This document shows, piece after piece, positions 31,493 to 34,865 of a stretch of 64,000 nt of DNA. Both the position numbers and the translations under genes were made by a program. Numbering within the stretch: position 1 is the first letter of the stretch; the number at the start of each line of letters is the position of its first letter. The stretch covers positions 1 to 64,000 of the forward strand of contig NZ_JAGQAZ010000002.1 of the NCBI RefSeq assembly GCF_024345375.1, given 5' to 3'. This stretch comes from Cyanobium sp. WAJ14-Wanaka. GTDB lineage: Bacteria; Cyanobacteriota; Cyanobacteriia; PCC-6307; Cyanobiaceae. A model generated the notes under the pieces. It had not been told where the DNA came from. It saw only the letters and a list, made by a program, of their open reading frames with translations, and searched no databases.

Positions 31493-32977
31493 TCAGAACT
31501 TGAAGGTGGTCTTGACTAGGCCGCCAACGCTGTCCTTGCTGCCGCCGTAGCCATTGATCCAAACGAATGCAGGAGTAACCGAGATGTTGTCGGTGACTTG
31601 CATCTTGTAGAACACCTCGAAGGAATCGGTGGCTTGATCAGTACCACCAATTTGGGTGTCGCCGTAGGCCATACCAAAGGCATTACCTTTCACGAATGCA
31701 TCACTCCACTGGAGGGCGACCTGCCAGGTGGAAGAATCACCATTGTCGCCGTTGGCATAGGTGGAACCCACGCCAGCGCTGATCGAGGGGATGATACCCG
31801 TGGTCTTGGGCTGCCAGTAGGCGCTGAAACCGAGGTTGTTAGCGCCCTTAGAGTTGTAAGAAGCGTTGGGGTCTAGCAATGCGTAGCTAGAAGCTGCATT
31901 TGAGTAGGTGTAGGCAAAGGCCATACCCCAGTTAGAAGCCGCATAGCCAGCCTGGAAAGTGGTAGTGGAGGCTGAACCAATACCAGAGCCATCGGCATCA
32001 AGTACGTTGCTGGACTGGACAGAGTTGCCAGAAGTCAGCTGGTTAGAAACGTAGTTACCGCTGAGGCTGAAGCCATCCTTCTTATAGGAAAGGCCAGCAC
32101 CGGCGCCCAGGTTGAGGCTATAGGCACCAGGTGCGCCTGCGTAGGTCATCCGATCAAGGATGGTGTCTGCGCCGTAGGCAGAGGGCCACATGGCAAGCAT
32201 GTCGTCCTGGCGAACCTTGGCACCCACGGTGGCGGTCCAGTTGGAGCCCACGGGGAACTGGTAGAACAGGCGGTTGATGCCGACAGCATCAGCAGAAGTG
32301 TTGCTGGGGGTTGAGGCTGTTTCCAAGGCAGCACTGCCGTTTTGGCCGAAGGCGCTGTTCTGATAGTTGTTGCTGCGCAGGGTGGTGCGGAGCAGATCTT
32401 TGCCGGTGAAGCTGGTGTCCAGATTCAACTTCACGTCGTAGTTGAACGTGATGTTGTTGGTGGAAGACCCAGTCGGATAATCGACACCGTAAGCAGTGCC
32501 GTTGTCCACACCGCCGATCACGAAGGTGGCGACGCCCTTCAGCTTGGTGGTGGTGGAGAACTGGTTAGCTTCCAGGGTGCCAACGCGGGCATCCAGGCCG
32601 TCAACACGGCCCTTGAGGATGGCGAGCTCCTTTTGGAACTCGGTCATCAGCTTCTTCAGCTCGTCGGTCGTCTCGGTGACCCGATCGAGGCAGGCGTTGA
32701 GCAGGGCGGCTGCTTCAAAGCGGGTCATGGCCTGGCCACCTTTGTAGGTGCCGTTGGGGTAACCAGCGACGCAGCCATAGCGCTCGATCAGGTTGGAAAG
32801 TGCTTGGTAAGCCCAGTCGGTGGGCTTGACGTCAGAGAACTGACTGATGCTGGTGACTTGCTCGTCGGCGGCGTACTTGCTGACGCCAGCCACGTTCAGG
32901 TCGGCTGCATTGGCGGCCATGGGAGCCAGAAGGCCCAGGGCAGCAGGGGCAACCAGGAGTTGCTTAAAGAGTTTCAT
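31493..32977 (-). CDS. SLH-domain iron-uptake-type porin (Som/OprB family)
   Basis: Major outer membrane porin of cyanobacteria, 494 aa. Signal peptide residues 1 to about 24 (LGLLAPMAANA), an SLH domain at about residues 45-100 (FSDVKPTDWAYQALSNLIERYG, then RFEAAALLNACLDRV), a coiled coil (about 105-145) and a C-terminal beta barrel ending in aromatic F (TTFKF). Diffusion of small solutes, perhaps inorganic ions; the SLH domain binds the peptidoglycan. ATG 32977 with GAGGA about 6 nt upstream, the same bases that match Yfr1 (see separate entry). Confidence 0.92.
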   Translation of the reverse strand: MKLFKQLLVAPAALGLLAPMAANAADLNVAGVSKYAADEQVTSISQFSDVKPTDWAYQALSNLIERYGCVAGYPNGTYKGGQAMTRFEAAALLNACLDRVTETTDELKKLMTEFQKELAILKGRVDGLDARVGTLEANQFSTTTKLKGVATFVIGGVDNGTAYGVDYPTGSSTNNITFNYDVKLNLDTSFTGKDLLRTTLRSNNYQNSAFGQNGSAALETASTPSNTSADAVGINRLFYQFPVGSNWTATVGAKVRQDDMLAMWPSAYGADTILDRMTYAGAPGAYSLNLGAGAGLSYKKDGFSLSGNYVSNQLTSGNSVQSSNVLDADGSGIGSASTTTFQAGYAASNWGMAFAYTYSNAASSYALLDPNASYNSKGANNLGFSAYWQPKTTGIIPSISAGVGSTYANGDNGDSSTWQVALQWSDAFVKGNAFGMAYGDTQIGGTDQATDSFEVFYKMQVTDNISVTPAFVWINGYGGSKDSVGGLVKTTFKF

Positions 32978-32982
32978 GGTGT

Positions 32983-32991
32983 TCCTCACAC
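32983..32991 (-). promoter_or_regulatory. predicted Yfr1 sRNA target site at the porin SD
   Basis: The mRNA reads GUGUGAGGA across its Shine-Dalgarno, the exact complement of the UCCUCACAC core of the cyanobacterial small RNA Yfr1. In Prochlorococcus MED4, Yfr1 is known to bind porin mRNAs over just such sequences and to repress them. The match is seen directly; regulation is inference. Confidence 0.6.
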
Positions 32992-33109
32992 GAGTAGGGC
33001 GCAATGCGCCAAACAGATAATGAGGCATTAATAAGCAATACCCAGGCCAGTTGTGCCAGAGCACACATCGACCCAATTGCCAAAACACTTTGGCCAAAAA
33101 CCAAATCCC

Positions 33110-33159
33110 AAAAACGATGCCCCCGAAACCCAGGCCCTAGGGGCTTGGACTTCGGGGGC
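33110..33159 (-). terminator. second terminator, downstream of the tiny reading frame
   Basis: On the minus strand GCCCCCGAA pairs with TTCGGGGGC across a 22-nt loop that contains a further small stem, and CGTTTTT follows within a few bases. It lies 33 nt after the 17-codon frame and about 130 nt upstream of the porin start, so it ends a transcript from the psbD-porin interval. Confidence 0.7.
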
Positions 33160-33191
33160 TCTCGCCGGGCTGCAATCAGCCGCGAAACCAG

Positions 33192-33245
33192 CTAGATGGC
33201 GTTCTCCGCGATCAGCAGACCCTGATTAGTAGTACTGGAACTCAC
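33192..33245 (-). CDS. possible 17-aa small protein or leader peptide
   Basis: GTG start at 33245, preceded by AAAGGAGGAGG about 6 nt upstream (one of the strongest SDs in the window), encoding VSSSTTNQGLLIAENAI and a TAG stop. A GTG two codons upstream could also start. No similarity that I recognise. It lies between psbD's terminator and a second terminator, so it may have its own transcript of about 150-250 nt. A small protein, a regulatory leader or the translated part of a dual-function sRNA are all possible. Confidence 0.45.
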   Translation of the reverse strand: MSSSTTNQGLLIAENAI

Positions 33246-33377
33246 GGGCACCTCCTCCTTTGGGGGATAGGGCCAGCCGGCGGCGGATTCGGCAGCAGGG
33301 CTGGTTCAAACCCTTGGGCTTGAGCCATAGGCCCCTTGCCCCGTCACTGCTGACAGAACCCACAAACAATAGCCAAT

Positions 33378-33402
33378 AAAAAAGGCGCCCCGAGGGGCGC
33401 CC
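33378..33402 (-). terminator. Rho-independent terminator of psbD
   Basis: A perfect 8-bp stem (GGCGCCCC with GGGGCGCC, 2-nt loop) followed on the minus strand by TTTTTT. It lies 35 nt after the psbD stop, showing psbD ends transcription without a following psbC. Confidence 0.9.
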
Positions 33403-33436: not shown

Positions 33437-34495
33437 TCAAAGGGCGTTTCCACGGGGCAGAACCTCTTCAGGGAAGACGAAGTTTTCATGCGGCTGGTCA
33501 GCCGGTGCCATCCAGGCACGCAGACCTTCATTCAGCAAGATGTTCTTGGTGTAGAAGGTTTCAAACTCAGGGTCCTCAGCGGCGCGGATTTCCTGCGACA
33601 CGAAGTCGTAGGCACGCAGGTTGAGGGCCAGGCCAATGATGCCGATGCTGCTGGTCCAAAGACCCATCACAGGCACAAACAGCATGAAGAAGTGCAGCCA
33701 GCGCTTGTTGGAGAAGGCGATACCAAAGATCTGGCTCCAGAAACGGTTGGCGGTGACCATCGAATAGGTCTCCTCTTCTTGGGTCGGCTCAAACGCCTTA
33801 AAGGTGTTGGCCTGGTCGCTGTCCTCAAACAGGGTGTTCTCCACCGTTGCGCCGTGGATGGCGCACAGCAGGGCACCACCGAGGATGCCGGCCACTCCCA
33901 TCATGTGGAAGGGGTTCAGCGTCCAGTTGTGGAAGCCCTGCAGGAAGAGCAGGAAGCGGAAGATTGCTGCCACACCAAAAGATGGGGCAAAGAACCAGCT
34001 GCTTTGACCCAGGGGGTACATCAGGAAAACACTGACGAACACCGCAATCGGGCCAGAGAAGGCGATGGCGTTGTAGGGGCGAATGCCGACTAGGCGAGCA
34101 ATCTCGAACTGACGCAGCATGAAGCCGATCAGGGAGAAGGCACCGTGCAGGGCCACGAAGGGCCAGAGGCCACCCAGTTGGCACCAGCGCACGAAGTCGC
34201 CTTGGGCCTCAGGACCCCAGAGGAGAAGAAGGCTGTGACCCATGGCATCAGCCGGGGTGCTCACCGCAGCGGTGAGGAAGTTGCAACCCTCCAGGTAGCT
34301 GGAGGCAATGCCGTGGGTGTACCAGGAGGTAACAAAGGTGGTGCCGGTTAGCCATCCACCCAATGCCAAGTAGGCAGTTGGGAAAAGAAGCAGGCCAGAC
34401 CAGCCCACAAATACGAAGCGGTCGCGCTTAAGCCAGTCATCAAGGATGTCGAACCATCCCCGTGCTGCTGGCTGGCGCCCAAGGGCAATTGTCAT
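33437..34495 (-). CDS. psbD: photosystem II D2 protein, copy without psbC
   Basis: PSII reaction-centre core protein D2, 352 aa, five transmembrane helices, full length. It begins MTIALGRQ and ends [15 protein letters not shown], which is D2 and not D1, and has the expected helices with His ligands (for example in [15 protein letters not shown]). In most cyanobacteria one psbD overlaps psbC; here a terminator follows directly and no psbC is present, so this is probably the second, separately regulated copy. The leader holds a GTTACAT half-site (34517-34523, plus strand) resembling half of an RpaB HLR1 box, only a weak indication. Confidence 0.97.
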
Positions 34496-34601: not shown

Positions 34602-34865
34602 ATGTTTGTCGTAGAGCTCTCGCTAAAGCTCAGCCCCATGCCCGTTGCCGTGCAGCGCAAGGAGCTCAGCGATGCCCAAGCCCTCTATGCCACGGTCAAA
34701 CAGGCCCTAGAGAGCGCCAGCCCGATGCTGCTGGAGCTCTCCTGCGAGAAGGAAGAAAGCAAGCAAATCTGCCTGCTCACTAGCGAAGTGGTGGCGGTGC
34801 AGATCTACGAAAAATCGGCGATGGCCTCCGGCAGCAAGCGCCCGGGTTTCAGCCTCTACAACTAG
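34602..34865 (+). CDS. UPF0367 family protein
   Basis: An 87-aa soluble protein matching UPF0367: begins [20 protein letters not shown] and contains [30 protein letters not shown] and final [10 protein letters not shown]. Found in most cyanobacteria; function unknown. ATG 34602, divergent from psbD (106 bp). Its TAG is followed at once by the GTG of the ABC ATPase gene, so the two are co-translated. Confidence 0.83.

Follow-up and report, generated by a model that had tools for sequence, protein, structure and literature searches.

In the stretch of DNA analysed here (the window, 64,000 nucleotides of Cyanobium sp. WAJ14-Wanaka), a reading frame of only 17 codons lies between the solitary psbD gene and a porin gene, which raised the question whether this frame encodes a micropeptide, serves as a leader of its neighbour or belongs to an RNA with a role of its own. 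An initial annotation had described a tiny GTG frame behind a very strong Shine-Dalgarno (SD) sequence between two terminators, with psbD ending at its own upstream terminator and the frame's terminator soon after the stop. Our analysis confirmed each of these points and placed them on the minus strand, which the annotation had left unstated: the frame, VSSSTTNQGLLIAENAI followed by a stop, runs from the GTG at 33245 to the TAG ending at 33192, the psbD terminator lies at 33402-33378, and the RNA's own terminator (about 33163-33110) begins roughly 30 nt past the stop.

The locus on the minus strand

The following features, given in the direction of transcription, make up the locus:

33437-34495, minus strand: solitary psbD, the upstream neighbour
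33378-33402, minus strand: terminator of psbD, 5' of the RNA (terminator scan and position)
33366-33371, minus strand: -10-like TATTGT of the putative promoter (upstream regions aligned on the 5' motif; by eye, relatives mostly have TAnnnT there)
about 33108-33358, minus strand: inferred transcript of ~250 nt (conserved 5' block and terminator)
33273-33354, minus strand: 5' structured domain with P1 (UCAGC:GCUGG), P2, and P3 with a conserved 4-nt bulge (RNAalifold, 43 sequences)
33249-33261, minus strand: extended SD AAAGGAGGAGGTG (GGAGGAGGTG exact in 77 of 78 homologues, whose selection had itself required an SD with at most two mismatches)
33192-33245, minus strand: 17-codon frame, GTG plus 16 codons plus TAG (reading of open frames and comparison of homologues)
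about 33110-33163, minus strand: the RNA's own terminator, GAGAGCCCCCG...CGGGGGCATCGTTTTT (terminator scan, sequence and fold)

In most of the aligned upstream regions, inspection by eye found TAnnnT just before a conserved start, GTTCYGTCAGCAGTG (TTTGGCAATAGCGA in AT-rich genomes), and because this start is conserved and preceded by such an element, we infer a separate transcript from about 33358 to 33108; a sigma-70 scan of the window reported no promoter for the RNA. The length first proposed for the unit, 150-250 nt, is to be corrected to ~250 nt, with structured 5' and 3' domains that had not been described. The view that its neighbours do not explain such a unit is supported by the presence of a real, conserved tiny frame in a discrete unit, and the suggestion of a dual-function sRNA or a microprotein came close to what sequence comparison points to, namely a structured RNA with a conserved frame.

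The downstream porin, which has OprB and SLH domains, starts at 32977. Its leader carries GTGTGAGG (32984-32991, minus strand), the complement of CCUCACAC within the conserved motif of Yfr1, which is described as a repressor of the porin alr4550 in Nostoc 7120 (PMC6974561). On the other side of the locus, a small conserved protein with no Pfam match (34638-34865, plus strand) is divergent from psbD; 14 of 47 loci have it in the vicinity of the RNA, some of them without psbD.

Conservation of the frame in picocyanobacteria

Using blastn, the RNA region was matched in 11 of the 16 genomes of the genus, its own included, and a 146-nt core was matched in 191 of the 400 sampled genomes of the family, with one match in 183 of these and two in 8. 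A 20-nt core with up to three mismatches was found in 226 of the 400 family genomes, some of them through chance matches within genes, and no genome had more than one exact copy of it among the matches listed. One genome (G049; L215, 1501-1626 on the minus strand, and L216) carries a second, diverged copy 5.3 kb from the first; this copy has no SD, yet the frame's core, the 3' block and the terminator are still there. A phage or plasmid origin of the RNA was dropped, as blastn gave no match in phage and plasmid records and viral contigs held no exact copy of a 24-nt core. A gene on the opposite strand was set aside on inspection by eye.

With incomplete loci left out, 110 loci with both core and SD yielded 78 homologues distinct over the 185 nt compared; they were chosen by the core (at most four mismatches) and the SD (at most two), and neither start, stop nor frame was a criterion. 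All 78 nevertheless begin with a start codon (ATG in 36, GTG in 42) and have a stop at codon 18 (TGA in 69, TAG in 7, TAA in 2), and with no insertion or deletion within the frame its length is always 17 codons, so that comparison across genomes supports both the homology of these loci and the ends of the frame. The seven TAG homologues are exactly the sublineage of the window, in which the span from the SD to the 3' block is 104-105 nt as against 124-155 nt (mostly 127-130) in the others, a shortening by ~23 nt; given this coincidence, the TAG represents a different stop at the same codon.

The RNA was absent from the small-genome genera g18, g11, g4, g27, g32, g56 and g40 (1.6-1.9 Mb, a size like that of Prochlorococcus), both genome-wide and beside the syntenic small protein; g40 gave one match at E 4e-4, which reads as a piece of a longer frame, and g56 one at E 0.65. 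Nor was it found in G009, a 99% complete genome of the window's own genus. Since it is missing from several small-genome genera and from this nearly complete genome, an RNA of this kind is dispensable. In seven loci of small genomes (L314, L316-L318 and L320-L322) the conserved small protein is present and the RNA is missing beside it; in L316, L318, L321 and L322 the place of the RNA is taken by a frame that resembles, as we take it, cysteine synthase.

The initial annotation had named conservation of the frame as the check on its proposal, and the outcome was divided: the frame ends are strictly kept (78/78), but codons 9-16 lack an excess of synonymous change. Among the 78 homologues the residues of codons 2, 3, 5, 6, 7 and 17 vary freely, while the third base of codon 17 is C in 75 of 78. 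Codons 9-16 show little variation: their variant codons number 5 synonymous and 13 non-synonymous, where single changes could give 21 and 51, respectively, so that there is no synonymous excess. For comparison, 17 genomes were used in which psbD is complete. The five of codons 9-16 whose residue does not vary are each represented by a single codon there, whereas of the 302 invariant residues of psbD in the same genomes (M and W excluded) 67 have a constant codon, and of its 152 fourfold sites 21 have a constant third base. Judged by this constancy relative to psbD and by the lack of a synonymous excess, the second half of the frame is held mainly as RNA, codons 9-16 being, on comparison of the sequences, conserved as nucleotides rather than residues.

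Predicted folds and a longer form in outer cyanobacteria

The 5' domain, aligned from 43 of the 57 sequences with a recognised 5' motif, was predicted by RNAalifold to be shaped as a long hairpin with a conserved bulge, and 16 of its 19 predicted pairs have at least one pair-keeping double change. A pairing of the 5' motif TCAGCAG with CTGCTGA of the frame was considered and dropped, as the AT-rich picocyanobacterial forms have GGCAATA there; it is also contradicted by the pairing of the motif inside its own 5' domain. RNAalifold further predicted eight pairs between the SD region and the 3' part, one of them with double changes; through such an SD:terminator-arm pairing the terminator arm might sequester the SD.

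Two alignments of the 78 homologues were used, of 67 and 63 rows, and RNAalifold on the former first revealed that the frame may pair with the 3' part of the RNA. The elements of this pairing in the window are:

33215-33222, minus strand: outer 5' strand of the long-range helix, GGGTCTGC, from the end of codon 8 to codon 11 (alignment, covariation and fold)
33204-33210, minus strand: inner 5' strand, CGCGGAG, from the end of codon 12 to codon 14 (covariation and fold)
33181-33187, minus strand: inner 3' strand, TTTCGCG (covariation and fold)
33167-33173, minus strand: outer 3' strand, GCAGCCC, with pairs GGG(U)CUGC:GCAGCCC (predicted fold)
33168-33181, minus strand: local hairpin GGCUG-AUUG-CAGCC, the window's counterpart of the hairpin H3 of its relatives (sequence and predicted fold)

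In the picocyanobacterial alignment (63 sequences) the long-range helix consists of GGGUCUGC:GCGGACCC plus CGCGGAG:UUCCGCG, and 97.6% of its cells are paired, with 3 double-change cells against 0.6 in shuffled alignments (8/500; 9/500, 14/500 and 32/500 by other shuffle measures). H3, formed by GGUUCCGC/GCGGACC in the same 63 sequences, is 97.3% paired and has 4 double-change cells (0/500 shuffles). When the 3' partner of the long-range helix was slid by 1-3 columns, 0-3 double-change cells were obtained and the paired fraction fell to 33-53%; sliding the partner of H3 likewise gave up to 5 double-change cells, with a paired fraction of 3-48%. Because the slid controls match the observed double changes, it is the paired fraction and the shuffles that back the picocyanobacterial helices; the strand of the helix that lies in the frame is nearly invariant in these organisms and its covariation is thin. 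In the window the local hairpin and the outer long-range helix are mutually exclusive and nearly equal in energy, as the free fold has -123.8 kcal/mol and the fold with the outer helix forced -122.4 kcal/mol, a cost of 1.4. Predicted full-length ensembles of the 78 homologues favoured the long-range helix in 48, H3 in 18 and neither in 12, the last comprising the seven short-spacer sequences, which the pairing measure misses, and five more. The picocyanobacterial 3' part can close as H3 instead, so that two exclusive folds are conserved.

The long-range helix begins ~23 nt past the start codon, which is just beyond the reach of an initiating ribosome.

A covariance model of the picocyanobacterial RNA matched 26 of 291 genomes and gave six matches, all of them weak, beyond the family. 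In five the SD is followed by a 23-codon frame and by a 3' block of similar kind; the sixth (L213) looks like chance. With at most two mismatches allowed, the pattern AGGAGGTGATGCCCATGA was then present in 222 of 282 genomes of the class, partly through chance matches, and its reversed control was rare. From 95 outer loci found by the SD-ATG pattern or by the model, 85 were kept that have 18-30 codons and SS near the start; the ten excluded loci include L209 and L210, which have the frame and fail the SS rule. Within this set, in which the SD, the ATG and the range of lengths are thus selected, the frame has 23 codons in 77 loci, 24 in 4, 25 in 3 and 27 in 1, it starts with ATG in 84 and GTG in 1, and it stops with TAA in 58 and TAG in 27.

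From codon 9 on, the outer frame is predicted to pair with the 3' part of the RNA over some 15 to 20 bp. For 66 distinct pairs (L254 and duplicates were left out, and L229 and L303 are without 3' block), native duplexes had -24.2 kcal/mol as against -18.9 with permuted partners, a difference reached in 0 of 10,000 permutations. Moreover, in an alignment of 36 of the 85 loci, 12 of 20 pairs of this helix have double changes, amounting to 46 cells versus 13.5 in shuffled alignments (0/500) and at most 7 in slid ones. Sequence comparison thus argues for pairing of the second half of the frame with the 3' part of the RNA, with strong covariation in the outer cyanobacteria and modest covariation in picocyanobacteria.

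A model built from the 36 outer sequences matched 214 of 271 genomes of the class at E ≤0.001, all of them outside the family among the matches listed. Run against 26 picocyanobacterial sources, it gave 21 matches, each at the known element, 17 of them at E <0.05 (best 4e-6) and four at 0.39-0.7, and missed five sources. The window, one of the four weak matches, scored 10.0 bits (E 0.63), and a scan of its whole genome with the outer model did not pick out the element. Given this weak score, the link of the window to the outer forms runs through its relatives and through synteny, and the window RNA is a derived form tied to them in this way. The outer peptides largely keep the C-terminus LxAGAVL while GGG/GGA, GCT/GCC and CTC/CTT swap; the C-termini of the two branches (ENAx in picocyanobacteria, AGAVL in the outer forms) are unlike, and the RNA architecture is alike.

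Neighbours, explanations and known systems

Among the 85 outer loci, psbD precedes the RNA on the same strand in 49; a porin is found downstream in the same orientation in 46 and PCD (pterin-4a-carbinolamine dehydratase, so named by Pfam in L211) in 30, and 21 have none of the three. Since many of the loci are cut off shortly beyond the element, these counts are lower bounds. The frequent order psbD - RNA - (PCD) - porin, which emerges from comparison of the loci, is kept by the window. In Nostoc 7120, psbD is alr4548 (PMC10406281) and alr4550 is an OprB-like porin (PMC6974561). Nine outer loci were viewed, and in these a T-rich, terminator-like stretch follows psbD and is followed by the RNA. 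Conversely, among 66 psbD loci (L029-L094, including a few picocyanobacterial ones), 15 have the outer RNA; Nostoc sp. CMAA1605 has two psbD loci, of which L088 carries it and L090 lacks it. Of 39 picocyanobacterial loci (the window and L120-L157), 16 have psbD before the RNA on the same strand. The gene that follows is convergent in 21 of the 39 (in representatives a DUF2079 or PMT-like membrane protein) and a co-directional porin in 8; in 6 it is unclear, and in 4 the contig ends before it. The psbD gene is an old neighbour of the RNA. The distance from psbD is about 1-2 kb in L120, L131, L133, L134 and L156, and in Synechococcus WH7803 (L024) the RNA follows psbD after ~1.8 kb with an opposite-strand frame between them, unlike in the window. 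In five loci (L233, L234, L280, L221 and L230) PCD starts 18-37 nt past the RNA's terminator, a gap too short for a promoter of its own, so that PCD may there depend on read-through from the promoter of the RNA.

On balance we favour the reading that the window holds the picocyanobacterial branch of an old, usually single-copy and independently transcribed RNA, very probably ncl0160 of other cyanobacteria (see below), whose presumed translation would set its fold. Ribosomes would load on the strong SD site, meet the long-range helix a few codons into the frame and melt it, and translation would thereby decide which of the exclusive folds the RNA adopts. The choice of fold might in turn affect how long the RNA lasts or how far its 3' part is open to a partner; control of the fold by translation, and a regulatory effect of the fold, are our proposal.

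The main rival, which we regard as unlikely, is a plain mRNA of a functional micropeptide, perhaps of photosystem II or the envelope, whose folds protect the message or tune its translation. It would account for the strict keeping of the frame ends, for an LxAGAVL that is largely kept in the outer forms despite the swaps of synonymous codons, and for psbD upstream in 49 of 85 outer loci, but it fits poorly with the 5:13 ratio at codons 9-16 in picocyanobacteria, with the free variation at codons 2, 3, 5-7 and 17 and with branches whose C-termini differ while their RNA architecture is alike. Given constraint on nucleotides rather than residues and the strong structure of the 5' domain and the outer helix, one might conversely take the RNA as a non-coding regulator in which the frame is incidental; this is very improbable in view of a near-ideal SD, ATG or GTG starts in 78 of 78 homologues and, again in all 78, stops of three kinds at codon 18 with no indel. 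A chance short frame between genes, for which only the shortness of the frame speaks, is refuted by all of the conservation results, and we give it practically no credence.

A different role is that of a leader peptide, already raised in the initial annotation, here combined with an attenuator in which read-through of the terminator would lead to expression of PCD and the porin. The co-directional porin next to the RNA in 8 of 39 picocyanobacterial loci, the window included, the same-strand porin beyond the RNA in 46 of the 85 outer loci and the closely following PCD in the five loci named above are in its favour. Yet a convergent gene comes next in 21 of the 39 picocyanobacterial loci and no co-directional gene is conserved, and we therefore rejected a porin leader as the general role, as the orientation of the next gene is not conserved. 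In addition, the long-range helix competes with H3 rather than with the terminator, and since helix and terminator do not overlap no antiterminator is evident; a candidate pairing of the SD region with the terminator arm shows little covariation, as one of the eight predicted pairs has double changes. Taken together, we hold attenuation to be a quite doubtful explanation, less probable than a micropeptide message.

Returning to an RNA whose translation sets its fold, a wider version, which we offer as tentative, would make the RNA a ribosome-read switch in most of the class: translation of a frame whose residues matter little would melt the helix between frame and 3' part, and a stand-alone RNA, often beside psbD, would report the state of translation through an exposed 3' part or through its stability. 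With the outer form in 214 of 271 genomes of the class and the present form in 191 of 400 genomes of the family, the RNA is a candidate for an overlooked regulator, and its exclusive folds together with the natural short-spacer variant make direct mutational testing of translation as the signal possible.

With regard to known systems, a cmscan against Rfam 15 (the window at gathering thresholds, the element region and eight related loci at E up to 5 and 1) returned only tRNA genes at gathering score, and the known families, including riboswitches, 6S and tmRNA, were dropped on this ground. Our literature search found no function for the window RNA and no mention of the peptide strings GLLIAEN, RLRAGAV and RLCAGAV, and an earlier description under another name is possible. 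The initial statement that no match is known has to be revised, since the wider family is very probably described as ncl0160 in PMC4734099.

Yfr103 is a structured picocyanobacterial RNA with homologues in many marine Synechococcus and some Prochlorococcus, and it is described with seven paralogues of 290-328 nt in CC9605 (PMC5069720), whereas the window RNA mostly has one match per genome and ~250 nt; identity with Yfr103 was dropped because of the differing copy number, the two being set apart by description, not by sequence. Yfr6 of Prochlorococcus MED4 is, like the window RNA, reported as an ncRNA with a short conserved frame, but this frame has 33 residues, is widespread in high- and low-light Prochlorococcus and has an overlapping partner, Yfr14 (PMC2518516). 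SR1/SR1P of Bacillus (PMC5126843) offers a parallel in that a single RNA may be both message and RNA, both roles being putative for the window RNA.

The closest counterpart is ncl0160, a name that PMC4734099 traces to work on Synechocystis 6803 by Mitschke 2011. According to Brenes-Alvarez 2016 (PMC4734099), 83 homologues share a conserved predicted peptide of 23-25 aa with an RBS ahead, mostly ATG and few GTG starts and the stops TAA (47), TAG (34) and TGA (2); ncl0160 was judged likely to be translated, Prochlorococcus and marine Synechococcus were excluded from that study, and the section on ncl0160 assigns no function. The outer RNA is very probably ncl0160, matched by description rather than by letters, since its frames of 23 (77), 24 (4), 25 (3) and 27 (1) codons lie near 23-25 aa; the helix between frame and 3' part and the psbD neighbourhood do not appear in the text of PMC4734099, its figures S1-S2 aside. 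The window branch shares with ncl0160 an ATG or GTG start behind an RBS and the use of all three stops, and it appears to be a homologous RNA at a comparable locus, with models that match in both directions via picocyanobacterial relatives and a common order of psbD, RNA and porin. It differs in its other peptide, its mostly TGA stops and its length of 17 codons (78/78), and because 17 codons stand against 23-25 aa, we class the window RNA as a variant of ncl0160 and not as a plain member.
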